Below the pieces are notes generated by a model. It searched no databases. It had not been told where the DNA came from and saw nothing but the letters and a program-made list of their open reading frames with translations. Position numbers and translations under genes: made by a program. A DNA stretch of 64,000 bases, taken from assembly GCA_009829735.1 (NCBI GenBank), contig CM020618.1:23669346-23733345 (forward strand), read 5' to 3'. Positions 14,001-61,843 of the stretch are shown here, piece after piece (position 1 is the first letter of the stretch; every line of letters begins with the position of its first letter). The DNA is from Pyropia yezoensis (taxonomy: Eukaryota > Rhodophyta > Bangiophyceae > Bangiales > Bangiaceae).

Positions 14001-14996
14001 TCCGTCTTAACAGACAATGGCCCCCAGTTTGCATCCCTTTTCTTCTAAGGAGTCTGTGACCTGATGGGTATCAAGAACTTGCGCACCACGACGTACCACC
14101 CGCAAACGAACGGCCAGGTGGAACGACTCAACCGGACCCTGGTGGACATGCTACGGCACTACGTGGAGGAGCACCAAGAAGACTGGGACGAGCTCCTGGC
14201 TGTCCTTACGCTAGCCTACAACTCCCGAGTTCACCGGACAACGGGGGTCGCTCCACTCGACTTTGTCACCCCAAGGCGGCTGACCAACTTCTCCCTGGAA
14301 AGAATACCAGACGGTCTCCAGCCTGCACTGAAGTCAGGTCCCAAGGCAAAGGATGAGTTCCTGGAACAACTGAAGCTCCTGCTCTCAAGAGTCAAGGAGT
14401 CAATCTCAAAGAGCCAGGAGCGATACAAGCGGGACTATGAAAAGGGTGTCCGGGAATAGAACAAGGAACTGGGTGGTGGCGACTGGGTTTTTGTGGACAA
14501 TCATAGCAAGACCCGGGGGAAGCTCGACTCTAAGACGGATGGACCTTATGAGATCCTGAATACGGACGGCTGGACCTTTCTTCTGGACGTGGATGGCTCC
14601 CCGTACCGGGTAAGCAGCGACCATGTCAGCCGAGCTCCACCGCCAAGCAAGCGGGACTTGACCCGGCGCAAGCGGGCCGCAGTACCCTGGCTATCCCAAG
14701 AAGAAGGCCGAGAATATGTCTACGTCAAGTTTGTCGACCACGCCTGGAGGGACGGGCGCTTGTACCTGCGAGTACGCTGGTTCGGTTTCAATCCGGCAGA
14801 TGATACCTGGGAACCCTCAAACCGGTTACCCATTGCGGACGTCTGCGCCTACACGCGACGGAATGGGATTGAGGGCACTCCGGTGGCCAGAGCCGGCAAG
14901 ATCCTGGAATCAGACTCGGAGGATGACCAGGAGGAAGGAGCTGATCAAGACCCGCGGGACGAGCCGAGCTCACCCGCAACAGACGCGGAACTATAA
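11031..14996 (+). pseudogene. E1 pol polyprotein (two in-frame stops)
   Basis: A single frame, +1 relative to gag. Domains in order: aspartic protease with VVDTGAG; reverse transcriptase with FCVDYRRLN and intact YLDDIIVFS; RNase H (ETDACG...TERECLAVVW); integrase with an HHCC zinc region (GHPGINRMY...CVSCARSR) and a core with SSMDILG, LTDNGPQF and YHPQTNGQVE supplying D, D and E; and a chromodomain (LYLRVRWFGFNPADDTWEP). TAA at 14046 cuts the integrase core and TAG at 14457 precedes the chromodomain. No frameshifts were found. The N-terminal boundary is unclear because the frame is open upstream of the gag end. Presumed inactive unless the stops are suppressed. Confidence 0.9.
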
Positions 14997-17449: not shown

Positions 17450-18019
17450 TGCAGCATCCCTGGCCCTGACTCGGCGCCGACCCGGACTGCAACCAGAGGG
17501 CACCAGGTGCCAGAACACGCCCGCCGTGTGGTGATGGTTGGCGGCCGTGGCCCGTGCCCGGCACTGGGATGCGGTGGACTACGTTATCCACACGTGAGAG
17601 AGGGATTTCTGATAGGTTTTTGCATACTTGTGAGGGACTTGATTTGAGAGAATTCGAGTGTGAGATTAGTGAGTGGGAATAGAATTAGTAGTGATAGTGG
17701 CCCCCGACCTGACGAGGTAAGACTCGGGTCGGGGCCACTCGGGGGTATGGGGGGGCTACCTGGCCAACGTGCCGAGGCTCCCCCAGATGCACGTTAAGAG
17801 GGACAGCGAGGCGCCCTTGGCCCGCGCCCTCAGGAAAAAGACAACTGCGCGTTTGCTTTCCTCTTCCCCGTGTGCACTACCGTGCGTATCTGCTCGCTCT
17901 GCGAGCAGGCACGTGAGGCAACAGGTATACCACTCTCGTAGTTCCCCTTTCTGTGTTACCTGTCCCTTTCCTCCGAGGGATATTGAAACGTGTCTGAGAG
18001 GATCGAGTTTTATACCACA
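17450..18019 (+). repeat. E1 3' LTR
   Basis: 570 bp, about 97-98% identical by eye to the 5' LTR, preceded by a purine-rich tract and followed by the GGCGG target duplication at 18020-18024. Confidence 0.95.
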
Positions 18020-23194: not shown

Positions 23195-23558
23195 TGTAGC
23201 AATATGGCTGGCCGTATTGTAACCCGAATATTAGGGGGGCTACTTCTAACCCTTAACTTTCAATTTGAGAGTCCGTACTGGTCACGGTATCTATAAGTTA
23301 CGTATGACGAGAGGGACTTGCATCTTGGGGGTGGAGGGTAGTTAGTAGTGTCTCCGAGGGTTTATAACGAGGGGGCCGGCGGCGAATCCACCGCCGGCCA
23401 AGGTAGAACAACAAACCCCTCCCATTTGGGCTCCCATCTTGGTCCCGTGGCTTGCGCTCCAAGGACAGCAACCTTGGCCTCCCGGTGACGTTGGTGCCGA
23501 TCCCCCTTGGTGAGTGTTCCCTGAGAGTGGACGTGCAGCGGGTACCTATTGTGCTACA
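23195..23558 (+). repeat. E2 5' LTR
   Basis: 364 bp with TG...CA ends. By eye about 97% identical to the reassembled 3' LTR. It contains a short inverted GCCGGCGG/CCGCCGGC stem near 23375-23398. Confidence 0.93.
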
Positions 23559-23577: not shown

Positions 23578-23783
23578 CGGGCTTCCGTCACCCTCGTGGT
23601 GATGCCGTCTTCGGCCCTGGCACACGAATAGGGATCCAGTCCGTTTCTTGTACTCGTGATGCTGCGATCTGTTTGATTGTGTTGCGTGGTTGCGGTTGAC
23701 TTCGATCTACTGTTACCCTCCCCCAACTTCCCCCTCGCTCGCTTGTTTGTGGTGATTGTTGCATCGGTTGACTGATTGTGACT

Positions 23784-25961
23784 ATGTCTACCCAAGAGGC
23801 GGGGAACGTTCAAGTTGACGGATCGGCGTCGACGCCGACCCCGGAGCTGAACCCAGGAACCGGGATCGGTAACCCGATCGACAACATTGAGACGCCGATG
23901 CTCTCCGGGGCCGGATCGACGTTTGGTACGGCACGGACGGCCGGAGGCGGCGGACCGCCGCAACTGTCCTCGGCCGACCTCACGCCGCCGCCACCTTCAC
24001 CAGGGGACTCCCTGATGGCATCATTGGCTCGCATCGAGGCCCGGTTCACTGGGCTCGACGCCCGTCAAGAGCGTACGGAGGATGCAATGGCTGTGCTGAT
24101 GTCAGCACGCCATACGACCGTACCCCGTCGTGTTCCTCCCACACCGGTACGGTTCGAACCGGCCGGACTACTTTCGGAGTCCACCAGGGTCAACCCCGGT
24201 GTTCCCACTCCTGGAAAACCCCCGGACACGGCGGGTTACGGATCCGACTCGTCGGCTGAGTTGGAACGTAGCCATACGGCGCGCTACGCTCGGAGCACCC
24301 AGAGCGGGCTCCGCGGACATGATCCGGCGGATACTTACGCCGGAACAAAGTCGGCGATGGGGGGAGGCGGTACCGTCTCGCATTACCCCATCGACGAAGG
24401 GAGCCAGGCAACTCGGGTACCCGAAGAGCCGACGCCGGAAGTTCCAGCGTCACTGGTTCAGGCGATGACAGCGCGGGCTACTGCAAGCTTACTGAAGCGG
24501 ATGGAGTCCGATGAGTTTACTCATCAACTGGCCAAGCGACTGGACATCCAGGACGCGGACACGGAGATTGTCAACGAAGTCTTCAGGTCGGTACTGACTC
24601 CGGAGCGTTATCGTTTGGAAAACCGATCCACTACCGTACCGGAATCGATGCGTACGACCTCGCACCGAGCGATCCGCTCTATGCAGACCCTTATGAAGGG
24701 AGTCCCTATGTTCGGGGGCCCTAACGGACGCCCGTTGGCAGTCATCGGCTTCTTGACTAGCTTCAAGGCAGCCGCAGACAAGGCGCTCGTTAACGAGGGG
24801 CTGGCCCTGGAGATCCTTTCGTTCTTTGTTGATGAACGGGTCCAAGGCATCCTCCGCCAGGCATCCCCGATGCCGGGAATGAGGGTCGCAGCCACCCCCA
24901 TGGATTACCGTGGTATACTGAAGGAGCTGCTTAGCAGCTACCTCAGTGAGGATAAGTGCGAAGACCACTATCGGGCCCTTCGCACTGCCATCGCCCAGTC
25001 CTGGGAGGATGAGGAGATGTTCGGACGCCGGATCCAAGAGCCTGACTACGAGCTGGGGAAGCTCCTCGGTGAAGGGGAACTACGGGCCATCCTGTTCGCA
25101 GGAGTACCCAACTATGTGCGGATATCCGCACGGGGAGCCAATACGGCTCGGACGAACTTCAGTCGACTGATGCATATGTGCAAGTCCCTAGGGGACGCCT
25201 ACCGGGTGCTACACCCGGAATGTGCCTTGGCCCCGAAGCCCAAGGGTGAGGGAGGCAAGCCCAGTCTTACCCCGGTACCGTGGCAAGAGAAGGTGGAGCG
25301 TAAGGCCGCACCAGTACTGGTGGCGACCGAACATATCCCTACGGGTGCGGATGAACCTCTAGTCGACCAACGGGGCCACCTGTTGCTACCGGCGACGCCG
25401 GTGATTGATGAGCATGGTACGGTAGCGTACATCACCCCGGCTGGGACCCAGTTCCTAGTTAACGAGGGAGCAGGACGGCGCGTCCCGTATGTACGCACTA
25501 CGGGGTATGCCCCGGTTATGGGTAACCCCCACCAACCCCTGCCGACATGGGCAGTGCGCACGGAGGCACCTCCGCACATCGCTGGTAGACCCAACCGGCT
25601 GGGGGAGTCCATGTTCCGGTTGGCACCGGGACCCAAGGCCTACCAAGGGGCAGGCACTCGGGCATCCGAGGCAGGCAACCGGACCTACGGAGCCAACCCG
25701 ACGCGGACGCCCGGGACGGGCGGCACGTCCGGGTGTATGTTTTGCGGAGACCCCCAACACTGGGTGTCCTCATGCCCGCTCATCCCGGAGGAGTCTCGAT
25801 GGGCAGCGGCGCAACGCCAGGCATCCATTGGTGGGTATCCCGCCAGAGGCCCGGCACCGGGCAGGCAGCAAGCTCCAGGAGGAGTTCTGGCAGTCGAGGA
25901 GGCACCTCCTCTCCCGGATATCCCGGAAGATAGTACTCGGCCGGGTACGGGAAACGAGTAA
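23784..25961 (+). CDS. E2 gag
   Basis: A 725-residue open frame from ATG 23784; an in-frame GTG lies 6 bp upstream. The N-terminal ~200 residues are Pro/Ser/Thr-rich. A helical capsid-like middle (about residues 230-470) contains FLTSFKAAADKALVNEG, which parallels the E1 and E4 capsid blocks. One CCHC zinc knuckle, CMFCGDPQHWVSSC (C-x2-C-x4-H-x4-C), lies at about 25734-25776. The product would form the retrotransposon particle and bind its RNA. The stop (TAA 25959-25961) lies where the pol frame opens, one base back (-1). Structurally intact, unlike the pol and antisense genes of the same element. Confidence 0.88.
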   Translation: MSTQEAGNVQVDGSASTPTPELNPGTGIGNPIDNIETPMLSGAGSTFGTARTAGGGGPPQLSSADLTPPPPSPGDSLMASLARIEARFTGLDARQERTEDAMAVLMSARHTTVPRRVPPTPVRFEPAGLLSESTRVNPGVPTPGKPPDTAGYGSDSSAELERSHTARYARSTQSGLRGHDPADTYAGTKSAMGGGGTVSHYPIDEGSQATRVPEEPTPEVPASLVQAMTARATASLLKRMESDEFTHQLAKRLDIQDADTEIVNEVFRSVLTPERYRLENRSTTVPESMRTTSHRAIRSMQTLMKGVPMFGGPNGRPLAVIGFLTSFKAAADKALVNEGLALEILSFFVDERVQGILRQASPMPGMRVAATPMDYRGILKELLSSYLSEDKCEDHYRALRTAIAQSWEDEEMFGRRIQEPDYELGKLLGEGELRAILFAGVPNYVRISARGANTARTNFSRLMHMCKSLGDAYRVLHPECALAPKPKGEGGKPSLTPVPWQEKVERKAAPVLVATEHIPTGADEPLVDQRGHLLLPATPVIDEHGTVAYITPAGTQFLVNEGAGRRVPYVRTTGYAPVMGNPHQPLPTWAVRTEAPPHIAGRPNRLGESMFRLAPGPKAYQGAGTRASEAGNRTYGANPTRTPGTGGTSGCMFCGDPQHWVSSCPLIPEESRWAAAQRQASIGGYPARGPAPGRQQAPGGVLAVEEAPPLPDIPEDSTRPGTGNE

Positions 25962-28900
25962 GAGGAAGGACGACACGGGGTCGCTGGGGTTACCCCAGCA
26001 AGCCAACCCGGACTGCCGCGGGGAAAGCCCCACGGAGAGCGCGGTTGAGCCGACCCCGCATCAACCCCCGGGTACACCTTCCGGCCCCGACGACACGGCG
26101 TCAGGGGATTGATGACCAACCACCAAGGTTGGGAGGAGAGGACAGGAAGCCCCGTCACATGGAACCAGACAAGGGCCCTGTTCAGGATGCCCGAGCTACA
26201 CCGGATATCGGTGTAGGCCACGTACTGTTCACCTTGGAGAACTTCAAGGTATCAGCCACACTGGGGGTTGAACCCCAGTCGACCCGATCGCATTACCCTG
26301 TACTGGATACAGGGGCTGGACGTAACCTGATCCGGAAGGATACCCTCCCAGACAAGTGGCTCCCGCGAGTCAGAGTTGCTCGGGGACCCACGATCAAGGA
26401 TGCAAATGGTCGTCTCATTCGTACGACCGCAGCGATGTCGCTGCAGGTCACCATCGGGGAGCTCACTACGGCAGTTGACTTCCTGGTGTGTGAGACTCTA
26501 TCTGTGCCCTGCATACTGGGGTGCACCTTCATCAACGTTCACGTTGATGCAATCCGGCCGGACCGGAGGACCGTCGAGCTGCAAGAGGCCGACGGGACTA
26601 AGCGAGGACAGACAGCTATCGTCAGGGACCTGACGTTACAAGGGAGCCACGTTAACGTGGCTGAGGTATACGCCAACGTAGAGCCGAGGACACTCCGGCT
26701 GGCCAAGCGGACTCGCTTTGAGCCGCAATCGGAGACCGTCCTCCCGGTTAACTGTGACCTCGCAGGCATCTGCAGAGTCCATTCCAACCTACGAACCTAC
26801 AAGCGCCATGGGTTGACCATGGCCAACGGTATCGTAGACCTCCCAGCGGGGAGGTCATCACTGCTCGTGATGGCGAACTATCGCCGTAAGGCAGTCACCC
26901 TCCCGAAGGGAACTATCCTTGGGATTGCCGAGCTCTACGAAAGATATATCGTTACCCCTGACAAGGAAGGTCAAGTGGAACTACTTGAGGTGCTGGCGGT
27001 CGCCGAAACCACCGAGCGGCAGCAACCCGATGATGGGAAGCCTAACCCGTCGGCAGCTCCGGCGGACATGCCGCCAAAGGACCAAGAAGCCTTGAAGGCA
27101 CTGGCCGAGGCTGACCTCGACCACCTTCCCACTTTCGATAGCTGAAGGGGTATGACGGATGCTAAGAAAGCAAGACGTCATGTGGACCGGCGGGGCGCTG
27201 GGTACCATTGGGGCAACCCAACACCGTATAGACCTGGTACCAGGTGCTCGACCAGCGCGGTCGCAACCGCATCGCGCGGGACCTATGCAACGAGAGATCG
27301 TTGATGGAGAAGTGAAGAGGATGAGCGAAGCTAAGGTGATCCGACCTTCGATGTCGGAGTGGGACGCCCCAGTCGTTATCGTACCGAAGAAGGATCAAAC
27401 CCCTCGGTTTTGCATCGATTATCGACGCCTCGACTTGGTTACCAAGAAAGACTCATACCCTTTACCAAGGATGGACGAGTGCATCGACTCGCTGGGGGAG
27501 GCCACAGTGTTTACCACTATCGACTGCAATGCCGGGTACTGGCAGATCCCAGTTGCTGAAGAGGATATCCCCAAGACGGCGTTCGTCTGTCACAGTGGCG
27601 TGTGCGAGTTCCTAAGGATGCCCTTCGGATTGTCCAACGCCCCCGCCACATTCCAGCGGGCCATCGACATTATACTGTCGGGAGTCAAGTGGCGTAACTG
27701 CCTAGTATGCTTGGACGATGTCATCGTCTTCTCGCGTAACATGGATGACCATGTGCAACATGTCGACGAGGTACTCACCCTCTTGCGGAACGCCGGGGTA
27801 GCCCTGCGCCTCAAGAAGTGCGCCTTCTTCCAGCAGACAGTCGAGTATCTGGGTCACCAGATCACACCAGGTAAACTGGGAGTGCTCGAAGCTAACACCC
27901 GGGCACTCCGGGATGCGCGATACCCAACCACCCAGACACAGCTGAAAAGCTTCCTGGGGATGTGCAACGTATACCGGCGGTTCGTCAAGGACTTTGCTCG
28001 TATAGCCAAACCGTTAACGGTTCTGACGAGCAGCGCCTTGCCAAAGGTACTCCAACCTCCCTCGCCCAGCGAGGGAGAGGCATTCGAGCTGCTCAAGCAA
28101 GCTCTGCTAGCTCCACCCGTGCTTGCGTTACCGCATAGACGCGGGACCTTCGTCATCGACGTCGGTGCCTGCGACACCCAAGTGGGATGCACCCTGCTAC
28201 AGGGAGAGACCATCATCGGTACCGATAATGCTATCCCGGACCTACATCCGGTAGGGTACTTCAGCCGGACACTCAACCCGGCTGAGCGTAACTATAGTGC
28301 CACCGAGCGCGAGTGCCTCGGAGTCATATGGGCAGTACAACTGCTCCGGTCATACCTGGAAGGTTCCAGGTTCATCGTAAGGTCCGACCACGAACCTTTA
28401 CGATGGCTTCCCAACCTTGGTGACAACGATTCCGACAGCCACGGTCGGCTAGCCCGGTGGAGACTGAAGATGGCCGAGCACGACTACCGGACCATATATA
28501 AGGCCGGCTCCACCCATCATCTGGGGGACGCGCTGTCGCGACTCGATACACCGAGCGGGGATACCCGACAGGTGGACGAGGACATCCCCGTGGTGCCGGT
28601 TTGCATGGTGGGTAATGCCACCCAAGGTATGGTTGACCATACCATGGCACACCTTGCGTGCCCATTGACCCTCGCGGACTTCCGCGAGGCACAGGCCAAT
28701 GACGATGACTGTAAACGCCATCGTGCTAACCTCCTGGCCGGCACGGCCGGCATCTTCTCCAAGAACGAGGACGGACTCATATACCGGCGGGCACCCGCCG
28801 ATGGACGGCATCAAGTCGTGGTTCCCGTGTCCTTACGGCAGGCCGTCATGGAACGAGAACACGAGAACCCCACAGCCGGACACCCGGGGGGTTCGCGCAT

Positions 28901-30137
28901 GTTCGCAGCAATGCGAAGGATCTTCTACTGGCCAGCTATGGCCGTCGACGTAATCGACCACGTGCGGGGATGCCACCCGTGTGCACGGAATCGCATGAGT
29001 CTTCATACGCGGGCATCCGCTATGAAACTGTTCCCCCCGGACGGACCCAACGAGCAAGTCGCTATCGACATACTCGGGCCGCTTCCGGTAACGGAAGAAG
29101 GGAACAGGTACATCCTGGTCATGTCGGACCGCTTTACTAAGCTGTCACGGGCAGTAGCAATCCCGAACGATACGGCCTACACGATCATGAACGCAAGGGT
29201 TGACCACTGGATCAGTGCTTACAGAGTAATGAAGCAACTCCTCTCCGATAACGGAGCAAACCTTACGTCAGCATTCTGCACTATGGCCCTGGGCATGTTC
29301 GGCATCGAACCCCGTCGGGCATCCGACTACCACCCGCAATCCAACGGGCAGGTGGAGCGGTTCAACCGCACCATCGTGAAGATGTTCCAATGCTATATGG
29401 CGGAGCACACGAAGACGTGGGACAGGCTTCTGTCCGTCTTGACCCTGGCATACAATGCCAGGCCCCACCGGAGTACCAGCATTGCACCACTGGAATGGGT
29501 CATGCCCATGGGCGTCGGGAACCTGACGCTGCCACCGGGCAGATGCACTCGGTATGACATACCGAAGGGCCGGCCGGCCGAACGGATCCACTTAGCTTGG
29601 TTGGCCAAGCTATCGTGGATGATTCCGAAGCTCAAGGGTGCCCTTGACCGTACACAACTTCGATACAAGAAGAACTTTGATGCCCGGCTACGGGTACGCA
29701 ACGCAACCCTGGTAACAGGTGACTGGGTCTACATCAGACACCAGAAGTTCCGAGGGAACAAGCTTATGTAACCGGTCAAGGGACCGTACCAGATCTTACA
29801 CAGAGATTATCACTCTGTCATCCTGCACTCCGATACGGAGATACAACGCATCAACCTCAATGATGTGACACCTGCTCCGAAGCAGGAACAGCCTCAGCCG
29901 GTACCGGCTGGGTTGCTACATGAAGCTCTTACAACCCACCGGTCAGATGACCCGGTGGGACCGGATGGGGTTCCATACCGAGTAGAGAGCGCGGTCGGAC
30001 ACACCGACCCGGACCTACCAGGACCCTGGTATGTCAAGGTGACGTGGGTCGGATACGACTCACCCACCTGGGAACAGGCGGCGAATATACCCCGCCAACT
30101 CCTCATGCCTTACATGAGGCGACGACGCCTACTGTAA
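25958..30137 (+). pseudogene. E2 pol polyprotein (frameshift and one stop)
   Basis: The -1 frame relative to gag is open from 25958 to 27145 and contains the protease (PVLDTGAGRNLI). The frame then changes near 27150, and 27159-29771 encodes reverse transcriptase, RNase H (SATERECLGVIWAV) and integrase (GHPGGSRMF...CHPCARNR zinc region, AIDILGPLP, LLSDNGA, YHPQSNGQVE). The RT active site reads CLDDVIVFS, with Cys in place of the usual Tyr of YxDD. A TAA at 29769 separates the integrase from a chromodomain-like tail (WYVKVTWVGYDSPTWEQ) ending at 30137. Presumed inactive. Confidence 0.9.
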
Positions 30138-30588: not shown

Positions 30589-32956
30589 TCAGTGGGTAGA
30601 ACCACTGCCCGAGGGAGGCCACTCACGCGTAGGCGCGTACACCTCCGTGCTCCACCGGTCGGCAATCTCAGGACGGTCAATTACCCGAGTTACCTCGGTG
30701 CATAGCTGAACGAGGGTGCTGCGGCCGGCCTCCACGTCCGCCAGAGCAGACTGGAGGCGGTCCAGCACACCACCGAAGCAACGCGCGGACCCAACCAGCG
30801 CAGCACCTGGGGGGATATCCCCCCAGCTAACAGAGAGACCCTCCCGCATCGCGCGGGCAACAAGGGCGTCTACGCCCTCATACCAGAGACGGGGACCCCC
30901 GTCACGCATGAAAGGGGCGGGAGGTGACACTGGCGCAGCCAGAGGAGCCACAGGAGCCGACACGGCTACCATAGGAGCCGGTGGCACCTGATACGAGGCC
31001 CGGTAGGACCCTACTGAAGGGGCCCCACCGTAAACCCGGCGGGGCTCCGCCCGACGACGGGATACCTCACGCTCCCCACCCGCAGAACCCCACTCTCGGG
31101 GACGACGGCCAACCGCCACCGGTATCGGGTTACCGAACCACGGGGCGAGGACCTGAAGAGGGTCATGGATAACCATGGGAATACCCAGGTCAGCAACAGC
31201 CTCGGTGGACGCCCACACACGGTAACTGGGCTCACCCGGCCAGTACACCGGATGCGCAATGAGTGACAAGGCAAGGGGGAAGCCGCAGCCTGCGGGTCCC
31301 GGTACGGGGGAAGGGCCAACACCCCAGCCCAGTTCACGGCATCGTGAACAGCCAGCAGGGCCTCGAACTCCCGGGCCAACCCGGTCTTGGCGGCTATCAT
31401 GTCCACGCCTAGCTGCTCGATGTGCCGACGGACACCCGTCGGAAGATGATACAGGCGCCCCTGCCGGCGGACGGACAGCAAGAAGGAGGAAGCCTGCCCG
31501 AGGGTAACCTCAAGGGTGAAGGTCCCCTGCAACGGGTGGACCGGCCGGGAGGCCAACACACTCCCGAAGTATCGGAGGCAGGAGCCGGTGTCAAACAGGA
31601 AAGCAGGGGCGGGTTCCCACCCCTCCCGCCACAGAGGCGGGCGCACGGCAGTGTACACCGGCGCACGACCGTTACCGGTCTGCAACGCACACGTTATATC
31701 GGTGCGGAATGCATCCGCCATGACACCATGGTTGCGTCGCCAGCTCGACGCCGACTTCAACCCCGCCATGGGCGGGTACGGAGCCGTCAACGTCAGGTAC
31801 GGGGATACCCCCGGGAAGTACTAAAACCCGGGATACCGGCCGGTATCACCCACCGTCTCCCCAAACGCCACCGGCTCCGCCGCCGCCGCAATCCCCCAAG
31901 CACTAGCCGGGTAGTCAACCTCCCGCGGCAACGCGGGGGCAATCAATTGCATATCCCGAAAGCGGAGTCGAGGTAGACATCACCCCGCCCCATCCGGGTG
32001 CGCCAGAGCTGCGCATGCCGGTCGTCCGGCTGGCTCAGGATCCAATGATGTTCCACCCGGACGGCGTTCGGCTGGTTGACCAGCCGCACCAACTCCCGCT
32101 CCCAACTCGGGTCCACCTTGACGGGCCGGGAGGTCTCTCCAGGAAGACGCGGCTGGTGGAAGTCCACCCGCATCCGCCCAGCGGACTCCATCGACTCCTG
32201 CACAGTCATGCCTCGATCCCGAGCCACCAAGTCGAACATCGACATGGCGGGTTGACCGGCCGCCAAGGCGACGCCGCCACCCAACGGGGCAACCCGGGCA
32301 GGACCAGGAAGAATAGGGGGCGCCGGGGGAAGCCCCACCGGCAGATGGGCCGGCACCGGCCGAGCACGGGGCCGAGGAGGAAGAATAAGGGCGGGCGCCC
32401 GCCCGGAGTAACTCCCGGAGTCCACTGCCATCGGGGTAGATACTTCTTGACCACCAGGCGTCCGCGGCACCGCGGGTAGAGCATCGCCGCCACTCGGGCC
32501 CGACGTGGGCTCCACAGGGGCAGCAGGGGTAGACCCGCTATTCGCTGCCGGGGACACACCAACCGGGCGGGCACCCGCGCCGTCTTGACCCGCCGACCCG
32601 GCCGGGGTGCCGCCACGACCCTCCGACACGCCGGCGACGCCGTCTTGAGGTAGAGACCCGCCGGCATCGGCGACAGAAGCCATCCGTACCGCCGGAGGAG
32701 TAGGGGTAGAGGCCACCGCTTCACGCGGTTGCCCGCCACCCGACGGAGCCGTCGTGCCGCTGCACACGGACGACAATCCGCCCGGCGCACCTTCCGGGGC
32801 CACACGAACGGTCACCCGGTCGCCTTCGTCCTCCGACGAGCTCGCCAAGAAGCACTCGGCGGCGGTGACAGAGACGGTAACGTCGTCCACCATCACCTCT
32901 TCCTCCTCCTCAAGCAGGAGGTCGTCCTCGCTCCCGGGTACCTGGGGGTCCGACAT
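30589..32956 (-). pseudogene. E2 antisense ORF (aORF2), frameshifted
   Basis: The counterpart of the E1 and E3 antisense ORFs, broken by at least three lesions. The first segment runs from ATG 32956 to a stop at 31943. The frame then changes near 31945 and again near 31820; the next segment runs to about 31290, and a last one ends at 30589. The N-terminal segment is acidic (DDLLLEEEEEVMVDD) and Pro/Gly-rich. The middle contains GRLYHLPTGVRRHIEQLGVD (about 31400-31460), matching GMLWHLP in aORF3 and NRLWLLP in aORF1. The C-terminal ~90 residues are helical (LDRLQSALADVEAGRSTL). No known domain. Together with gag and pol it shows the usual E1/E3 layout. Confidence 0.7.
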
Positions 32957-33544: not shown

Positions 33545-33884
33545 TGTAGCAATATGGTTGGCCGTATTGTGACCCTAATATTAGGAGGCTACTTCTAACC
33601 CTTAACTTTCAATTTGATAGTCCGTACTGGTCACGGTATCTATAAGTTACGTATGACCAGAGGGACTTGCATCTTGGGGGTGGAGGGTAGTTAGTAGTGT
33701 CTCCGAGGGTTTATAACGAGGGGGCCGGCGGCGAATCCACCGCCGGCCAAGGTAGAACAACAAACCCCTCCTATTTGGGCTCCCATCTTGGTCCCGTGGC
33801 TTGCGCTCCAAGGACAGCAACCTTGGCCTCCCGGTGACGTTGTTGCCGATCCCCCTTGGTGAGTGTTCCCTGAGAGTGGACGTT
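33545..33884 (+). repeat. E2 3' LTR, first part (340 bp)
   Basis: Starts TGTAGCAATATGG and is interrupted by E3 after 340 bp. The remaining 24 bp are at 43266-43289. Confidence 0.93.
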
Positions 33885-34352
33885 GTGGCAAAAACCACAT
33901 GCACACACGGCACCCAAGTTGGGGCGGTGTGCAAGGGCTGCCTCCCGTGTCGGGGGAACCGGAAGAAGTGCAAGTCGCACACACTCTGTCCCTGTTGTGG
34001 GGCAAACCCCCCACGGACAAACAAGAGGATGGTGTGTGGTCCAACAGTTTCTTGGTCGGGACGGGGACGCAGGGCCAAGCCCCGCTGTCCCTCCCCTTAT
34101 CCCCCCAGGGTCCACTCAGAATCTCGCCACTCAGAATCTCCCACCCCAGCACCTGCCCACCGGGCCACACGAAAATTCAAGACGATAAATGCAGAAACCC
34201 CTCAAATCCAAGTTGGATTTACTACTAAGCTAACTATCCCAAACTTAGGGAATATGGACCCAAATGCAGGGGGAGGAACGGATCAGGCTAGTGGCCTGCC
34301 GCCCCTTGCGTGGCACGTGTTGCCCCCCTACCTGGGGGTCAATACTGCCACA
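33885..34352 (-). repeat. E3 3' LTR
   Basis: 468 bp on the minus strand, flanked on its right side by the element's polypurine tract (34353-34365). TG...CA ends. Confidence 0.95.
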
Positions 34353-34690: not shown

Positions 34691-36634
34691 ATGGCGACCC
34701 CGGGAGTGGAGACGGACTCTCTAGATGAGCGGATGGAGGACACCACCTACGGTGCAGCACCCGCCGGGACTTCCGGCGGGGGCTCCGTGATCGCTCCGGG
34801 GGATGGGACTCCCGCGTCACCCGGCTTTGGGTTGAAGGCGGGATCTCCCCCGGAGGCGGGACAAGTTGTCCCGCGTGAGGCCTTGGGGCGGTGGTTTTAC
34901 CCCGCTTGGCCTATCTATGAGGAGGGGTTGACTGTTCTTCGCTGTGGCCGACTTGGCGCAGCAATGGGTCGGGTATGGGACCGCCTACGGGAGAAGTATG
35001 CCCGTAGGGTCGGGTTCCCTGCCGGCTTCAGGACGGACCAGTTTGCCTTCCTGGACGATGAGGAGGTTGAGGACGTTCAGCGTGCCAAGGCCATGGTGGA
35101 CCGCGGGGGAACTATCCCGGGTCCCGGCGACTTGCCGACCTTTACTTGGGACGCGGTGGCAACTCGCCCCCCGTACCTTCACGAGGCCGATCCGCACACT
35201 CATCACTTTGATGTGCGGATGGAGAAAGACTTCCGGCGAGGTCCCTACTTGGTGACCTCGGCTCAACTTGAGTTTCCTCAACAGTCTGCTGCCAGTAAGG
35301 AGCAGTACTATCCGAAGAAGCCCGAGTGGTGGCCTCAATTTGAGTTCCCCTACGGGTTCCCGGCGTTGCTGCCACGGTTGCTTGACCACTTCGGCTCCGT
35401 CATGTTGACGGCTGGCCCTGATCACCTGGTGTGGGCCATGTTGGCCACCCAGTGGCTCCTCGAGGTCATGTCGACCTGGGTGTCCTGTGTTCAGCGGCGG
35501 GGGATGCTCTGGCATCTCCCCCTCCGGCTCATCCAAGGCTTGGAACAGCTCACCCCTCAGCTAGTTGCTGAGGGGTGCTCATCAGGACCACTCACTCTAC
35601 TTGAGGAGATGCTCCGGCTCCATAAGTTTATCGAGTGGGAGAGCATTGAGCACAAGTTGCGCCGCCCCACTCGTGGGCCCAAGGACGATGGCGCACTTCG
35701 CCAGTTCGTGTGGGTCGCTCGTGAACTTCACGACGGCCGTGTGGTCCTACGAGAGGGGTTGGGCATCGGGGACTACTCGTATTCCCCGGGGGTGGATCGC
35801 CACACTGCGCCACCCCCGGACAAGCCCATAGTTATGGCTGTGCCCTCATATGATGACCATATGACTCAACCTACTGCGGGGGCCCCAAGTCGGGGTCGCA
35901 GTTACACCCGGGTACCGCCACCTCGGCGTGCCCCTCCGCTTCCTCCTGTTCCTCTCCAGCCTCACGGGAACATCCCGATCAGCGTGGCCGTGGAGTCATC
36001 CACCCCGGTGTCCCCCAACTTGGGGGCCACCCTCCTGACGGTATACCCCAAGTTGGTGTTACCGCCCACGCCTCAAACCTCAGAGATGATGATCACCACG
36101 TTGGTGCGCACCATTTCCTGGTTGGCCGCGTCGACCGCAACCCTCCAGAGTTCCGAGACTCCTCAACTTGAGGAGCGCGTTCGTACTGCAGTGGCGACCG
36201 CGAGTTGCGAGTCGGTGGCGGAGTTCATGACAGCCGAGTTGGCTCGCATTGGGGCTATTATGCCCCAGCCAGCCCCACTTGGGCGTGGCAAACTTCGCGC
36301 GAGCCGGGCATACTCGCCTCCTCGCCGTCGTCGCCGACACTCGCGGCGCTCTCCCTCCGTGTCGGAAGACGAGTTGTCTTACTCCGACTCGGAGTCCTCT
36401 ACCCCGTCGGAGACGGAGTCTGTCCAGCGTCTGCGTCGCAAACTTGCGCGCAAGACCAGGCAGAAGAGTAGCCACGGTCGGCGCCACTTGCGCGACCGTG
36501 AAGGGCGCGACGGTTCCGACTTGGAGCCGCCGCCCCTTCCAACGAGTGGAGACCGTTATCGGCGTGGGTCTCGCCGCTCGCCTCCACGTGAGGGCGAGGG
36601 CCGTGGAGTGGGAGAGTCTAGCATGCGTGCCTAG
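34691..36634 (+). CDS. E3 antisense ORF (aORF3), conserved accessory protein
   Basis: An intact 647-residue ORF opposite to gag-pol, 338 bp inside the 3' LTR and convergent with pol (111-bp gap between stops). ATG 34691 is chosen; the frame is open upstream only from non-ATG codons. Residues ~55-400 look folded: PYLVTSAQLEF, EQYYPKKPEW and FEFPYGFP, then VQRRGMLWHLPLRLI and LEEMLRLHKFIEW. These blocks align with aORF1 and, for the second, with aORF2. A Pro-rich linker follows, then a helical segment (about residues 460-520), and a basic/Ser tail with RRRRRHSRRS and YSDSESS that could be nuclear or RNA-binding. No known domain is recognised. Possible roles (Gag-like, regulatory, chromatin targeting) are speculation. 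Confidence 0.82.
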   Translation: MATPGVETDSLDERMEDTTYGAAPAGTSGGGSVIAPGDGTPASPGFGLKAGSPPEAGQVVPREALGRWFYPAWPIYEEGLTVLRCGRLGAAMGRVWDRLREKYARRVGFPAGFRTDQFAFLDDEEVEDVQRAKAMVDRGGTIPGPGDLPTFTWDAVATRPPYLHEADPHTHHFDVRMEKDFRRGPYLVTSAQLEFPQQSAASKEQYYPKKPEWWPQFEFPYGFPALLPRLLDHFGSVMLTAGPDHLVWAMLATQWLLEVMSTWVSCVQRRGMLWHLPLRLIQGLEQLTPQLVAEGCSSGPLTLLEEMLRLHKFIEWESIEHKLRRPTRGPKDDGALRQFVWVARELHDGRVVLREGLGIGDYSYSPGVDRHTAPPPDKPIVMAVPSYDDHMTQPTAGAPSRGRSYTRVPPPRRAPPLPPVPLQPHGNIPISVAVESSTPVSPNLGATLLTVYPKLVLPPTPQTSEMMITTLVRTISWLAASTATLQSSETPQLEERVRTAVATASCESVAEFMTAELARIGAIMPQPAPLGRGKLRASRAYSPPRRRRRHSRRSPSVSEDELSYSDSESSTPSETESVQRLRRKLARKTRQKSSHGRRHLRDREGRDGSDLEPPPLPTSGDRYRRGSRRSPPREGEGRGVGESSMRA

Positions 36635-36745: not shown

Positions 36746-39700
36746 TCACGTTGAGGGAGGGCTGTTAGGGTTTATCTCATTCCGGGCACAGTACGCCCGG
36801 ACCTTCTCAGCGGAAAGGTCCTCCACATACTCCCACGTATCATCCTTGGCTTTGTAGCCAAACCAACGCACCCTCAACATGAGGCGGTCAGTGTCCTCAT
36901 CCCATCCGTGGTCGATGAACTTATCGAACACGTACTCCTGCGGGCCCTGTTTGGCCGCAGGCAGTGAGGGGAGGCGCCACGCTTCCAAAGCACGCGCCCA
37001 AGCTGGGTCGCCTGCAGGCGGTGGTGCAACTTTGACCACGTCCTGTCCGTTCACTGTGCAGACCCCATCGTCACTTTCGATGGTGAAGCGCCGCCCATCA
37101 GTACGAAGGACCTGGTACGGCCCCTTCGTCTGGAACACCAACTTACCCCCAGTTGGGGTGTGTGAATGAACCAGCACCCAGTCACCCTGCTCGGGGACGT
37201 GCTTAGCATTGCGCACCTTTTTGTCAAAGGTACGCTTGTAGCGCTTTTGTGCTTTGTCCATCTCAACCCTGACTTTAGGGATGAGGTGTTCCAGCCTAGC
37301 AGCGAACTCCGCCTTACTCTCAGTAGGAGTAGGCGTACTGCCACTATCCTCCCTAGTTGGGAGCGACCGCCGCACGGCAATAGACCGCACACGACGGGGG
37401 GTCACAAAAGCGAGGGGTACTTCCCCGGTAGATGAGTGAACCTGCGAATTGTAGGCAGTAGTAAGGATAGAAATGTATTGGTCCCACGTCTTCACGTGCT
37501 CACTCACATAGTGGCGCAGCTGCCTAACAATAGTTTTGTTGAAGCGCTCCACCTGCCCATTAGTTTGTGGGTGGTAGGGGGTGGCATAGTTCGCCTTAAC
37601 CCCCAACATATCCAGCACTCCCTGAAACAGTACCGACGCAAATTGCGGTCCATTGTCCAATAGTTTACTATCTGGGATGCCATACGCGGCAACCCAGTGA
37701 TCTAGGAAGGCTGACAAGACCGACATGGCCGTGATCTCTGCCAGTGGGATCGCTCGCGTAAGTTTCGTGAAGCGGTCACAGATGACCAGGAGGTACTGGT
37801 TGCCCTCCTCGGTCACTGGCAGTGGCTCAAGGATGTCCATTGCCAATGCGGCGAAGGGCTCCTTGGCCGGGAACAATAGCATAGCCGTACCAGGCCGCCG
37901 TTCCATCAGACGGTTCTGTGCACAACTTGTGCAGGCAGCCACCCAACTATAGATGTCCACCACCATGGACGGCCAGTAGTACCTGGTCCTCAGGGTCTGG
38001 TACAGTTTAATAGACCCCAGGTGTCCACCCGTTGGAGCGTTGTGCTCCCTCTCAAGGATACTGTCCTTGAGGGATGCGGGGACGACAAGTTGTTCGGTCC
38101 CCTGGAATACCCCCCTCCTCATGAGGAGGCCATCGTCTCCCAAGAAGAACCGCGTATCCGCCACTGTATCCAGTGTATCCCTCTGCGACTTGCAGAAGGG
38201 ATCCTCGGCCCGGGCCTTCACCACCTCGTCCAGGGACAGGGGCAAGTACTTTTTGTTCCCTGGCGCCTCGGGGTTCAACGCCTGACCCGAGCGCGTGACT
38301 ACCCCCACGATGGGGATGTCCTCATCGACTGGGTTAGTGTCCAGCCCCTCGGTAGGTACCCGAGAGAGGCCGTCGGCAAGGGCATGTTGCCTGCCAGGTC
38401 GGTACTCAATGTCAAAGTTGAAGGGTGCCAGTCGCACCCTCCACCGATTGAGACGAGTGTTCGTACAGTCCGTCTTAAAGATGAACTGCAACGCGCGGTG
38501 GTCACAGCGGATGAGGAACTTCTCACCCTCTAGGTAGTAACGAAATGACGTCACCGCCCACACCACTGCGAGTCCTTCCAACTCGGTGACTCCGTAGTTC
38601 TTCTCGGCCGAGTTCAGCCCCTTACTGAAGTATCCCACCGGCAAGTACTCCTTGTCCGGCTGCTGCTGAAGCAACACACAACCAAGTTGGTCGTAGCTAG
38701 CGTCCACATCTAGGATGTAGTGGCCTCCCAACCTGGGAATAGCCAGGATAGGGGGCTTCAGCAGAAGATCCCGAAGAGTCTCAAAGGATTCCTGCTCCAC
38801 CCGACTTGGGGGAGACAGGTTCTTCGGTAGCGTTGAGCTCACTAGCTCATTCAACGGCTTCGCCACCTTGGCGAAGCCTTTGGTGAAACATCGGTACACG
38901 TTACACATCCCGAGGAAGCTCCTCATCTGGGTCTGGGTCCGGGGGTACTGAGCCTTACGAATGGCCCTCAAGTTCTTCTCGTTAACACTGAGACGCCCCG
39001 GACGGACAACATGTCCCAAGTACTCCACCTCTTGAGTGAAGAGGTGGCACTTACTCGCCTTCAGTGACACACCGGCGTCAGCAAGTAGCTTGAACACCTG
39101 GCCAAGATGGCCAATGTGTTCCTCCGGACTTCGGGAGAACACAATGATATCGTCTAGGTACACAAGACAGATCTGCCACCGTACTCCGGCCAGAATCATG
39201 TCCATAGCGCGCTGGAAAGTTGCCGGCGCGTTACACGGACCAAACGGTAGGCGCTTGCACTGGTAGGTACCACAGTGACAGGTAAAGGTAGTTTTATGCC
39301 TGTCCTCCGGGGCAATGCGAATTTGCCAGTACCCCGCGTTACAGTCCAGGGTAGAGAACACGTTTGCCTCCCCCAGAGAGTCCAGACAGTCGTCCATCCT
39401 AGGTAGAGGATAACTGTCCTTCACCGTGCTCTCGTTAAGCTTACGGTAGTCGATACGAAACCGGGGGTTCCCATCAACTTTGGGGACGATAACCACCGGA
39501 CTCGCCCACTCGGCGTTGCTGGCCTCGATCACATCGAGGGCCTTCATGCGAGCAACTTGCTCCTTAACGAGGGCCCTTGAACGAGGTCCTCCCCTATACG
39601 GTTGTTGGCGTATAGGGGGTGCACCGGGCTTCAACTCGATCCGGTGTTGGGTGGCTCTCATGAGTCCCAATTGACCATCCCACAACTTAAGATATTGGTC

Positions 39701-40729
39701 CAAGAGGCGTTCAACTTGAACCCTCAACCTGGGGGGGACACCCTCCATGTTCACATGGGGCCGAGGAGAGGCGGCCGACTTGGCTTGATGCTTCTCCTTT
39801 CCGGACTTCGGGTCGCTACTTGCGCCCGCGTTGAGGGTGACCGCTACTACCGGTCCCTCGTGTTGGTCGATATAGCCGAACTTGGCTCCCGACTTGAAGT
39901 ACTGGGGCGACGAGCTCAGGTTCATCACCTGGATCCTCCACGGGGTTCCGGCTTTGGAGTCCATCGTGCCAAGGGCAACATGCACTTGGTGCTTGCGAGC
40001 AAGACGGGGGTAAGGGTGCACCAACCCGTTCCCCGTATAATCAGTTACAACGTCAACGTGCGCCACCGAGTTGGGGGGCAACGTGACTTTACGGGCTAAA
40101 CGCAGGGTAGCAGTAAACCCTTCCCTCACCGAACAAACAGGCTTCGACAGTGAGACTGTCACAGGAGCCACAGACTTTCCCTTACCAAGGATGGGGATAG
40201 TCTCCCCATTCATTAACTTGACCCAGTACTCAGGGCCACAAATCAAAGGCACTTGTGTAACAACATAAGGGGTACCCAGAAGCAGGGGTACCGATATATT
40301 CTCAACTACACCATAGGTCACGTCGACCTCATGGGTCCCCAACCTGGTTGGTAGGGTCACGGCACCAACGATGGGAAGTACCCCACCATTGATGTCAATC
40401 ATATGGTCAGCTTTGGACCTCCAGCGTTGGAGCTTCACCTCCTTTGGTAATAGCGACTTGTGTATGAAGGAGGCTCCTGACCCGGTATCAAGTACGATAC
40501 GGGCACAACAGGCGCGGCCGGGGGCAAGTTGCACCCGTCCAGCCACCTGGAAGTTCTCACCCGTCAGCACCGCGATGACCCGACGTGGGTTTACGTTCTT
40601 GGGGAGTCCTACCCGAGGTGGGCGGACTCCCTTAGGTCGCCGCAGTATCCGGCACAGTTGGTTCGTCCTCCTGGCCCACTTGGCCGAGGCTGCCGTTGTG
40701 AGCTTCGGACGACCAGCCCCAACGGTCAT
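36746..40729 (-). CDS. E3 pol polyprotein (intact)
   Basis: An uninterrupted 1327-residue polyprotein. Protease with IVLDTGSGASFIH near residue 80; reverse transcriptase with FRIDYRKLNE and intact YLDDIIVFS; RNase H (DVDASYDQLG, TELEGLAVVW, ADGLSRVPTE); integrase with an HHCC region (GHLGSIKLY...CTSCAQNR) and catalytic DILEPLP, LLDNGPQF and YHPQTNGQVE; and a C-terminal chromodomain (LMLRVRWFGYKAKDDTWEY). Its ATG at 40729 overlaps the gag stop as ATGA, so translation by termination-reinitiation or by a -1 shift are both possible. All catalytic residues inspected are present. It would copy element RNA and integrate the cDNA, with the chromodomain probably guiding it to modified chromatin. Confidence 0.95.
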   Translation of the reverse strand: MTVGAGRPKLTTAASAKWARRTNQLCRILRRPKGVRPPRVGLPKNVNPRRVIAVLTGENFQVAGRVQLAPGRACCARIVLDTGSGASFIHKSLLPKEVKLQRWRSKADHMIDINGGVLPIVGAVTLPTRLGTHEVDVTYGVVENISVPLLLGTPYVVTQVPLICGPEYWVKLMNGETIPILGKGKSVAPVTVSLSKPVCSVREGFTATLRLARKVTLPPNSVAHVDVVTDYTGNGLVHPYPRLARKHQVHVALGTMDSKAGTPWRIQVMNLSSSPQYFKSGAKFGYIDQHEGPVVAVTLNAGASSDPKSGKEKHQAKSAASPRPHVNMEGVPPRLRVQVERLLDQYLKLWDGQLGLMRATQHRIELKPGAPPIRQQPYRGGPRSRALVKEQVARMKALDVIEASNAEWASPVVIVPKVDGNPRFRIDYRKLNESTVKDSYPLPRMDDCLDSLGEANVFSTLDCNAGYWQIRIAPEDRHKTTFTCHCGTYQCKRLPFGPCNAPATFQRAMDMILAGVRWQICLVYLDDIIVFSRSPEEHIGHLGQVFKLLADAGVSLKASKCHLFTQEVEYLGHVVRPGRLSVNEKNLRAIRKAQYPRTQTQMRSFLGMCNVYRCFTKGFAKVAKPLNELVSSTLPKNLSPPSRVEQESFETLRDLLLKPPILAIPRLGGHYILDVDASYDQLGCVLLQQQPDKEYLPVGYFSKGLNSAEKNYGVTELEGLAVVWAVTSFRYYLEGEKFLIRCDHRALQFIFKTDCTNTRLNRWRVRLAPFNFDIEYRPGRQHALADGLSRVPTEGLDTNPVDEDIPIVGVVTRSGQALNPEAPGNKKYLPLSLDEVVKARAEDPFCKSQRDTLDTVADTRFFLGDDGLLMRRGVFQGTEQLVVPASLKDSILEREHNAPTGGHLGSIKLYQTLRTRYYWPSMVVDIYSWVAACTSCAQNRLMERRPGTAMLLFPAKEPFAALAMDILEPLPVTEEGNQYLLVICDRFTKLTRAIPLAEITAMSVLSAFLDHWVAAYGIPDSKLLDNGPQFASVLFQGVLDMLGVKANYATPYHPQTNGQVERFNKTIVRQLRHYVSEHVKTWDQYISILTTAYNSQVHSSTGEVPLAFVTPRRVRSIAVRRSLPTREDSGSTPTPTESKAEFAARLEHLIPKVRVEMDKAQKRYKRTFDKKVRNAKHVPEQGDWVLVHSHTPTGGKLVFQTKGPYQVLRTDGRRFTIESDDGVCTVNGQDVVKVAPPPAGDPAWARALEAWRLPSLPAAKQGPQEYVFDKFIDHGWDEDTDRLMLRVRWFGYKAKDDTWEYVEDLSAEKVRAYCARNEINPNSPPST

Positions 40730-42672
40730 TCGTTTCCCGCCGACTTGGCGTCCGAATCTGAGGGCGGGGAGGAAGACGACGAGTCCGAGGACGACGTGTC
40801 CGCCTCCTCAGCCGAGGGTGTGGCGACCGCGACGACCGGTCGAGACCCACCCTCGCGGCGTGAACGTACTTCGTTCGTAGCCGACTTCTTACTCGCATTC
40901 CTAACAAGTTGTTGGATGCGTCTACTCAACTTGGGGCAATCATATGCCCAGTGTCCATCGGAGTTGCAGTTCCAACACCGATGGTCTGTTCCGGGAGGGA
41001 TCTTCCCAACTGGGGAAGACGAAGGGACACCCTGGGAAGTTCCCACGGCAGCTACCACCCTCTCCTTGCGGATTCGGCGTGCCTCTCTCAACTCTCTGGC
41101 CTGGCGCGCCTCCTCCCGTTCCTTGGCCTACTCGGCCCGACGCTCCTGGCGTTGTTCCTCCCGCAACTTGCGGTAGGCCTCGCCTCTGCGATAGGCAAAC
41201 CTGGCCAACTCGGCCAGGGTCGCCCGGGCAGTGTTATGCTCCCGGGTCTCCATCCGGACCGACCAATGGAGTCCCTCCACAAACCGACTCTTCACCACAG
41301 CTTGTGGATGAAGAAACCCACAAAGATTGTTGAGCTTACGGACTCGCTCCGCAAAGGACAACTCGTCCTCCGCCTCTTCCTGGTGGGCTTGCGTAAACTC
41401 CTCGACTTGAGAAGCCAACGCTGCCTCATCAACCATGGCTCTCAACAACCAGTTGACGAGCTCCAAATAGGACGTCACCTCCCCAGCGCCTCCACTTGAG
41501 GAGCTGGGCATGACGGACATAAGTTCTGTCCGCAGGTCGCCCTTCGTAAACTCCTGTAGCATGTAAAAAGCCATGCCTTCACTTATGGCATTGTCGTCAC
41601 AGGCTTTTGTGAAACGACGTAGGAACTCAAAGACACGGAGGGGGGGGGCTCCATCCCACTCCGCTTTGTGCCCAAAAGAGTGAAGTGCATTCTTCTTGGC
41701 ACGGCCCATGGCTCGGGCCTGGTCAGGACCATACGCCACCGACTTGTTGTGGAGGGCGTAGGTCTCACAGTCAAAGATCCGCTGGTAGACCGGGTTGGCT
41801 ACCTGGATCTTGGGCGGCACCTCACGTTGAGGGAACAGCCGCTGTGGCACTGGGGTAAGTTGACCCTCAGCGCCTGTAGTCTGGTACGGCGAGCTTGGTG
41901 TAGCCGCCGGCGTTTCCGAGGGGAACTCCCCCGTGAAGGGCGTACGCCCCACCGAGAATGGTGCGGCTCCCACGTTGGGAGTCACAGGGGTCCCCCCCTG
42001 TTCGGGGCGACCCGGAATAGGCGTCAGGGGAGATTCCCCCTGCGCCTGCGGGCTCGAAAGCCCCAATCCGGTCTGGACATTAAGGCCATCTGGCAAACTC
42101 GCCACAATCTGATTAAGAATAGTATTCGTCATCGTGACCACCAGGTCCGGCAAAGTCTGCCGCAACACATTGGTCGCCTCCCGACGGACAATTTCCGCGA
42201 GGAGTGGATTGACGACTCCAGTTGAGTCTCGGTCCGCCTCCGGGAGTCCACCTGAGGGGTAACCACGTTCCTCAGGGGCCTCAACCGGGGGCATGGGCGC
42301 GAGCCCATCGCCGACCAACGGAGGTCCACCGTCCTCCGAAAGCCTAGTTGGCGACGGCTCCAAGCCAAAGTTGGCTCCAACCCGAGTGGAACCCGCGGGG
42401 ACAGTCCTCACCCCTTGGGACGTTCCCGTTGAGTATACCACACGGTGGCCAGACTTCGGCCCACCCACATCAGAAGTGTCACCCGAGTGAACTCCCGACT
42501 GAGTCGGGGTGGCCTGTTGCCCGCCCGTACTTCCAGTCCTGCTGGCTTGAGGGACCTCTAGTCCCTCTGCGACCCCAGGTAAACCCACCTGTGTCTCACC
42601 AGTATTCAAAGGCACTGAAGTACGTGCGTCACCCGTGTACTCCCCGGACGACGGGGGGTCCGAGCTAGCCAT
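40726..42672 (-). pseudogene. E3 gag (single internal stop)
   Basis: One frame from ATG 42672 to TGA 40728-40726, about 649 codons, interrupted by a single TAG at 41130-41128. E4 has TTG (Leu) at that position. Pro/Gly/Thr-rich N-terminus, capsid-like helical region with FEFLRRFTKACDDNAISEGM, a charged Arg/Glu-rich helix where the stop falls, CCHC zinc knuckle CWNCNSDGHWAYDC, and a Ser/Asp-rich tail. Otherwise very close to E4 gag. The stop means E3 alone may need readthrough or Gag supplied by another copy. Confidence 0.9.
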
Positions 42673-42771
42673 GTTGGCTGACGATCCGTATGACACGGTC
42701 CAAGTCCACCGTTCCTCTGAGACAGAGGGCCCCCTACACCCGGGTGCACCCGGAGGTAAAGTTTACCTCTG

Positions 42772-42791: not shown

Positions 42792-43260
42792 TGTGGCAAA
42801 AACCACATGCACACACGGCACCCAAGTTGGGGCGGTGTGCAAGGGCTGCCTCCCGTGTCGGGGGAACCGGAAGAAGTGCAAGTCGCACACACTCTGTCCC
42901 TGTTGTGGGGCAAACCCCCCACGGACAAACAAGAGGATGGTGTGTGGTCCAACAGTTTCTTGGTCGGGACGGGGACGCAGGGCCAAGCCCCGCTGTCCCT
43001 CCCCTTATCCCCCCAGGGTCCACTCAGAATCTCGCCACTCAGAATCTCCCACCCCAGCACCTGCCCACCGGGCCACACGAAAATTCAAGACGATAAATGC
43101 AAAAAACCCTCAAATCCAAGTTGGATTTACTACTAAGCTAACTATCCCAAACTTAGGGAATATGGACCCAAATGCAGGGGGAGGAACGGATCAGGCTAGT
43201 GGCCTGCCGCCCCTTGCATGGCACGTGTTGCCCCGCTACCTGGGGGTCAATACTGCCACA
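42792..43260 (-). repeat. E3 5' LTR
   Basis: 469 bp on the minus strand, TGTGGCA...TGCCACA ends, near-identical to 33885-34352. Confidence 0.95.
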
Positions 43261-43265
43261 GACGT

Positions 43266-61823: not shown

Positions 61824-61825
61824 TT

Positions 61826-61843
61826 TGGTGGAGCAGCAGGGGA
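61826..61843 (+). promoter_or_regulatory. E4 primer-binding site
   Basis: TGGTGGAGCAGCAGGGGA, 2 nt after the LTR, identical to E1-E3. Confidence 0.8.

Follow-up and report, generated by a model that had tools for sequence, protein, structure and literature searches.

An antisense gene family in related gypsy retrotransposons of the red alga Pyropia yezoensis

A 64,000-nucleotide stretch of the genome of the red alga Pyropia yezoensis (assembly GCA_009829735.1, contig CM020618.1, positions 23,669,346 to 23,733,345), here called the window, contains three gypsy-type long terminal repeat (LTR) retrotransposons, E1, E2 and E3, each with a large open reading frame (ORF) on the strand opposite gag and pol. 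Do these antisense ORFs represent one gene, how did it come to be shared, and what might its product do? Our analysis showed that the three ORFs almost certainly form a single protein-coding family, which is under purifying selection and occupies the same slot in at least five related element families. A preliminary description had placed the ORFs between pol and the 3′ LTR of E1, E2 and E3, antisense to gag-pol, and all three were found there (window coordinates; aa, amino acids):

15148..17265, minus strand: E1 antisense ORF, 705 aa, intact
30589..31269, minus strand: E2 antisense ORF, C-terminal piece
31011..31790, minus strand: E2 antisense ORF, middle piece carrying the conserved core
31943..32956, minus strand: E2 antisense ORF, N-terminal piece of a broken copy; intact 789-aa copies lie elsewhere in the genome
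34691..36634, plus strand: E3 antisense ORF, 647 aa, intact

The E1 length is counted from the ATG at 17265; counted from a second in-frame ATG, at 17457, it is 769 aa. The E2 gene had been described as broken, which is correct for the window copy, where it is split into three minus-strand frames (30589–31269 overlaps 31011–31790, and 31943–33058 stands apart), but not for the gene itself.

Homology and selection among the antisense ORFs

In each family, the longest antisense ORF exceeds the maximum of 500 dinucleotide shuffles (769 versus 386 aa in E1, 647 versus 328 aa in E3, and 789 versus 391 aa in an E2 copy). The genome searches covered a 107.5-Mb assembly of 11 contigs and give the best 150 matches, so that copy numbers of E1, E2 and E3 are lower bounds and more distant families may be hidden. 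Among the matches listed, which are the best-scoring copies, the E3 frame is stop-free in all 68 full-length and all 150 core matches, the E1 frame in all 150 core and 43 of 63 full-length matches, and the N-terminal part of E2 in 96 of 119. The 789-aa E2 frame was present in 19 of 20 fetched stretches, which had been chosen for long open frames; the remaining one was clipped by the chosen coordinates. Since the other five frames of the E2 copies contain on average 7 to 23 stops, codon constraint from a sense-strand gene, which had been considered as a cause of the ORF length, is excluded.

Sequence comparisons revealed that the proteins are alike in one common block (BLASTP E-values of 1e-5 for E1–E3 and 0.003 for E1–E2), and the motifs quoted in the preliminary description are present. 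Alignment with hhalign gave E-values of 1.2e-4 for E1–E3 and 9.3e-5 for E2–E3 over about 170 aligned columns. In 2000 local shuffles of the part taken as folded, none reached the observed scores of E2–E3 (113, versus a maximum of 63) or E1–E3 (78 versus 67). The shared blocks proposed earlier therefore hold for these two pairs, but not for E1–E2 taken alone. Two results weigh against a single family: the E1–E2 score of 44 was reached by 76 of 2000 shuffles (at full length, by 117 of 500), with hhalign aligning only the Pro-rich stretch of this pair (0.078), and the C-terminal parts of E1, E2, E3 and the E4 copy L044, compared alone, have no significant similarity. Homology of the C-terminal parts is visible only inside the long E4–E3 and E4–E2 alignments.

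Further families connect the three proteins. E4, located by a search with a piece of integrase, is a sister of E3, and its copy L049 has an antisense ORF of 638 aa from an ATG (681 aa from a GTG). This protein matches E3 with an hhalign E-value of 1e-26 over 283 columns, E1 with 0.001 and E2 with 4.5e-4; its Smith–Waterman scores lie above all 1000 shuffles against each of E1, E2 and E3, narrowly so for E1 (123 versus 115) and E2 (105 versus 99). Mixed profiles gave significant matches throughout, as the preliminary description would predict: 5.6e-7 for E2+E3+E4 against E1 and 6.8e-8 for E1+E3+E4 against E2, versus 0.066 and 0.079 for the best of 40 shuffles. A fifth family, E5, is represented by the broken copy L073. 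Across the genome, the E4 core lies 1.2–3.2 kb downstream of integrase on the opposite strand in 82 of 120 integrase copies, at 2.2–2.5 kb in 81 of these 82. E4 and E5 are known from integrase onward, and gene order there means that the antisense ORF lies downstream of, and antisense to, integrase.

Substitution patterns, analyzed by the Nei–Gojobori method, indicate selection on the encoded protein. In E2, the ratio of nonsynonymous to synonymous substitution rates (dN/dS) is 0.38 (19 copies, 171 pairs), and the counts of 6400, 6054 and 12848 differences at the first, second and third codon positions show a third-position excess. The core has a lower ratio (0.28) than the N-terminal low-complexity part (0.51). 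Four control frames gave 1.2–1.4; one antisense frame gave 0.48 but has about 18 stops per copy. The corresponding ratio of proportions of differences (pN/pS) is 0.34 in E1 (four copies, one with a stop) and 0.14 in E3 (eight copies). The values among copies are thus well below 1, and the selection postulated earlier is borne out.

Constraint on the antisense ORF is about that on the pol end of the same copies. Comparing E3 with its older subfamilies L074, L075 and L076 gave pN/pS values of 0.32, 0.31 and 0.26 for the antisense ORF and 0.30, 0.20 and 0.26 for the pol end; the values for E3 versus L003 are 0.13 and 0.15, and the antisense ORFs of L075 and L076 give 0.44. A pooled pol ratio of 0.85 was discarded as an artefact of L002, L004 and L006, copies with deletions or frameshifts. 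Pairing the window copy with L003, L005, L007 and L008 yielded 33–35 synonymous versus 16 nonsynonymous differences in pol.

Carrier elements and the descent of the gene

E1, E2 and E3 consist of gag followed by pol, with reverse transcriptase (RT), RNase H and integrase in this order, between LTRs, as judged from Pfam matches on pol, gag homology and LTR pairs. The preliminary description regarded gag, pol and LTRs of the three as clearly different. This did not hold for gag and pol, which are related: RT and RNase H are 54–56% identical, and the gag proteins match with hhalign E-values of 1.4e-10 to 1.1e-21. The chromodomain profile PF00385 matches E1 (6.2e-5) and E3 (3.7e-4), both under the curated cut-off; hidden Markov model search found no PF00385 match in E2, though by eye a chromodomain seems to be there. 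An integrase tree of 11 rows, which carries a long-branch warning, separates E1, E2, E3 and E4 from the other rows with support of 100/100. Judged from these sequences, the carriers look like members of one chromovirus clade with a common ancestor. At the seven loci on the other side of the tree, of another gypsy clade (from eight picked out of 150 listed integrase matches, and judged by likeness to this antisense ORF, so that an unrelated one may be present), no significant similarity to the antisense ORF was found within some 5.6 kb (best E-values 0.49 by tblastn and 0.32 by hmmsearch).

Integrase and the antisense protein diverge in step, as the following identities show:

Older E3 subfamilies: integrase 88–92%, antisense ORF 79–89%
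E4–E5: integrase 73%, antisense ORF 46%
E3–E4: integrase 68%, antisense ORF about 32%
E1–E3: integrase 54%, antisense ORF 23%
E2–E3: integrase 45%, antisense ORF 24%
E1–E2: integrase 44%, antisense ORF 26%

The gene therefore looks ancestral to this clade. The preliminary description had argued for an old, selected antisense gene shared by the three families. Profile matches and dN/dS agree with this, and because the carriers share an ancestor, one gain followed by vertical descent is enough to account for its distribution. The simplest reading would be that the gene was gained once, ahead of the splitting of the clade, was inherited vertically and evolved faster than pol.

In the window, the remaining parts of the three elements are arranged as follows:

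8375..8945, plus strand: E1 5′ LTR, 571 bp, 97.7% identical to its partner
9281..10336, plus strand: E1 gag ORF
10602..14048, plus strand: E1 pol ORF, early stop in the window copy; its frame, with a chromodomain-like end, extends to 14996
17450..18019, plus strand: E1 3′ LTR
23195..23534, plus strand: E2 5′ LTR, part aligning with 33545–33883; its last bases extend beyond 23534
23778..25961, plus strand: E2 gag ORF
26045..29771, plus strand: E2 pol ORFs, 26045–27145 and 27159–29771, the latter with RT to integrase; the frame ends at 30137
33545..33883, plus strand: E2 3′ LTR, part before the E3 insertion, the remainder beginning at 43261
33884..34352, minus strand: E3 3′ LTR, 469 bp, 99.1% identical to its partner
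36746..40729, minus strand: E3 pol with RT, RNase H, integrase and chromodomain-like C-terminus
41128..42696, minus strand: E3 gag ORF
42792..43260, minus strand: E3 5′ LTR

The E2 LTRs are 97.4% identical. E3 has inserted into the 3′ LTR of E2, whose tail follows after E3, with a 5-bp target duplication (GACGT; 33879–33883 and 43261–43265). In all three elements, the stops of the antisense ORF and of pol are about 110–450 bp apart, and the antisense ATG lies 184 (E1), 588 (E2) or 338 bp (E3) from the LTR. The E1 window copy has premature in-frame stops in pol (14046–14048, 14457–14459), and its antisense gene is intact. Elsewhere in the window, a partial second E3-like copy in opposite orientation (61358–63996; 96% over 2639 bp) runs up to the window end, an inverted E1-type LTR lies immediately ahead of E2 (22609–23186), and a dispersed repeat (5843–6142 and 49674–49973) is 99% identical over at least 300 bp.

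Deletion forms of E3 and E4

Deleted elements occur on both sides of the gag-pol and antisense gene pair. In E3, a junction that joins an early pol piece (window position 39559) to the pol end (37550) was found at 63 places in the genome with at most 3 mismatches (reversed control, 0). Copies L002 and L006, which have different flanks, also lack 39893–42295. A listed antisense ORF core is present at at least 19 of the 63 places, and 14 of these 19 have the full 724-codon open frame. Inspection of 18 junction copies revealed an intact 647-codon frame in 12, a stop in two, an indel in two, no antisense match in one and an ambiguous result in one (L066); eight had been taken from listings of intact matches, and four of the remaining ten were intact. 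The gag-pol-deleted derivatives (L002, L006 and L055–L072), many of which have an intact antisense gene, show pN/pS of 0.12–0.13 in the antisense ORF and 0.17–0.18 in the residual pol end. The antisense ORF of L069 is 1 base from that of the undeleted L008, whereas those of L057, L058, L059, L061 and L064 have 65–81 differences from undeleted copies, which shows that the junction has recombined onto several antisense ORF types. The case for selection acting within the gag-pol-deleted lineage is weakened by this recombination and by the pol end, which is likewise conserved.

In E4, 38 of the 120 integrase copies (fragments included) have no antisense core at the expected place. At least three of these 38, L044, L051 and L054, have a pol frame of 1346 aa together with internal deletions in the antisense ORF; the deletion is the same in L051 and L054, which lie on different contigs. 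The idea that E4 has just a short antisense ORF came from the single copy L044 and was dropped after six further stretches, because L049 has the 638-aa ORF and other copies (L050, L051, L054) have deletions; L052 and L053 match E4 at the start only. The recurrence of deletion forms with intact pol suggests that the gene is not needed in cis, which fits either trans action or dispensability. L044 also contains imperfect repeats of about 96 bp (2363–2630) beyond the 5′ end of the antisense ORF, toward the 3′ LTR, which recall tandem arrays reported at that position in Retand.

Features and possible role of the antisense protein

The aligned proteins share a conserved core that ends in LW/LF-x-LP and is followed by a helix-like stretch and a Pro-rich linker. 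The start of the E2 protein is strongly acidic (net charge −15 over 50 residues), and the C-terminus of E3 is an Arg/Ser-rich tail with a run of five Arg. A membrane segment was not detected, as no 19-residue hydropathy window exceeds 1.6 (maxima 1.59 in E1, 1.29 and 1.23). The N-terminal part had been described as folded; AlphaFold2 does not bear this out, with a mean predicted local distance difference test score (pLDDT) of 31–33 (32.7 for the E3-first and 30.7 for the E1-first alignment). Both low-confidence models are helical in secondary structure, to which we give no weight.

Searches of Pfam, NCBIfam and PHROGs gave nothing or one chance-level match each (best E 0.16, 0.15 and 0.28), and PDB sequences gave no match at E≤10. 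In protein databases, with about 8000 candidates scored per search, only P0001 (95% identical to E3) and P0003 (87% to E1) were found. An origin from gag or pol was rejected (hhalign E 0.1 or worse). The preliminary description had stated that antisense ORFs are known from some plant gypsy lineages and that it recognised none of these in the protein. Such ORFs occupy the same slot in Grande (gene23), RIRE2, Retand (ORF4) and PvRetro13 of Phaseolus (ORF2) (PMC7264820, PMC11963269). The first three are likewise aORF-3R genes, antisense between pol and the 3′ LTR; the present family differs in its red algal host, in the chromodomain matches of two of its three carriers and in the lack of a Transposase_28 match. 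PvRetro13 ORF2 has an SMC-like domain, whereas our family has no significant Pfam domain. Outside plants, an extra antisense gene, brtn, is reported for the gypsy-type Boty-like (BcGypsy1) elements of Botrytis cinerea (PMC8365987, PMC7264820), a likeness to the present gene by description only. Among the titles and abstract beginnings searched, which covered few subscription journals, no such antisense gene was found for red algae. The antisense accessory gene is thus of a known kind, and this protein family, by sequence, looks new. The mussel Steamer-like element MchSLE-1, an LTR retrotransposon, reportedly has an antisense mRNA, a likeness by description only. The antisense gene of human T-cell leukaemia virus (HTLV) is HBZ. 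This gene is a regulator transcribed antisense from the 3′ LTR, as two reports state (PMC7264820, PMC11963269), and serves as an analogy only.

What would such a protein do? The best overall explanation, to which we assign slightly less than an even chance, is that the gene was already present in the common ancestor of the clade and that it is expressed in each element from a separate antisense transcript, which would converge tail-to-tail with gag-pol and start within the 184–588 bp between ATG and inner 3′ LTR edge or in that LTR. The product would be a soluble accessory protein with an acidic or low-complexity N-terminus, a core with an L-W/F/Y-x-LP motif, a Pro-rich linker and a probably helical second part, ending in E3 in the Arg/Ser-rich basic tail. 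It would act in the nucleus and in trans on the expression of its own copies, through LTR transcription or escape from silencing. That the product is a nuclear trans-acting regulator is itself a tentative proposal, drawn from sequence features and from plant analogues. The acidic E2 start, the Arg/Ser-rich E3 tail and the plant precedent point to the nucleus: the Grande gene has a promoter of its own and its product is located in the nucleus (PMC7264820), and regulation of the elements' own expression has been proposed for Grande and Retand. The recurrence of E4 forms without the gene makes trans action probable. Several points weigh against this picture. The basic RS-like tail is clear in E3 only, the E1 hydropathy maximum is barely below the usual 1.6, and the AlphaFold2 models provide no usable fold. 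The E4 deletions are equally compatible with a dispensable gene; deleted forms could persist via recombination with other copies, as the E3 data show, and duplication of one copy could explain the deletion shared by L051 and L054.

A role as replication cofactor, in or on the particle or the pre-integration complex, where the protein would aid assembly, nuclear import or integration, is less likely. The gene is present in all five clade families examined, is selected about as strongly as the pol end in the same copies and in E3 encodes a basic tail, and this possibility has been named for plant antisense ORFs (PMC7264820). However, a separate antisense transcript would better suit a regulator than a structural part, and comparison with gag and pol gave no match (hhalign E 0.1 or worse). 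Rather improbable is a broader proposal, in which the antisense gene would be an ancient trans-acting selection unit of its own that defines a red algal chromovirus clade, with some members of an element population supplying the antisense product and others the machinery. Under such a division, the E3 derivative would often keep LTRs and antisense gene, the E4 form would keep pol without the gene, and the protein might, for example, protect its own copies against silencing.

Four further explanations have a very small chance. The family could be a far relative of Transposase_28 (PF04195), which would mean that red algae and flowering plants have an antisense gene in common; the Retand antisense protein shares slot and orientation and carries this domain as the conserved part of a longer protein (PMC11963269). 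Yet no PF04195 match at E≤10 was found by sequence-profile search in the genome, the proteins or the core pieces. Moreover, Retand belongs to a non-chromovirus angiosperm lineage, and the sub-cut-off chromodomain matches of E1 and E3 speak tentatively against membership. Slightly less probable still is that the elements took up a host gene and carry it along as a passenger. LTR elements are known to capture genes (PMC7264820), but the gene sits in the same place in diverged families and is under selection; no host-like relative appeared among the roughly 8000 candidates scored per protein search, although genome searches are crowded by repeats, so that a diverged parent could hide. It is even harder to see the antisense transcript as the agent, through double-stranded RNA or copy-number control, with the reading frame incidental: the tail-to-tail layout would give overlapping transcripts and antisense-RNA regulation has been raised (PMC7264820), but amino-acid purifying selection, the third-position excess and homologous proteins at 23–26% identity between families argue for a protein. 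Least likely is that an envelope-like or membrane gene became inverted: its position, that of env between pol and the 3′ LTR, and the E1 stretch at 1.59 could be cited in favour, and the antisense orientation and the hydropathy of E1, E2 and E3 against.

Antisense accessory genes of gypsy elements are without established function and, in the literature covered, come from flowering plants and one fungal case. The red algal family suggests that the habit of carrying such an extra gene originated, or survived, well beyond the flowering plants. Several hundred copies are listed, in at least five families; selection is clear, and deletions are found both of gag-pol and of the antisense gene. The family provides a comparative system for testing what role these genes play.
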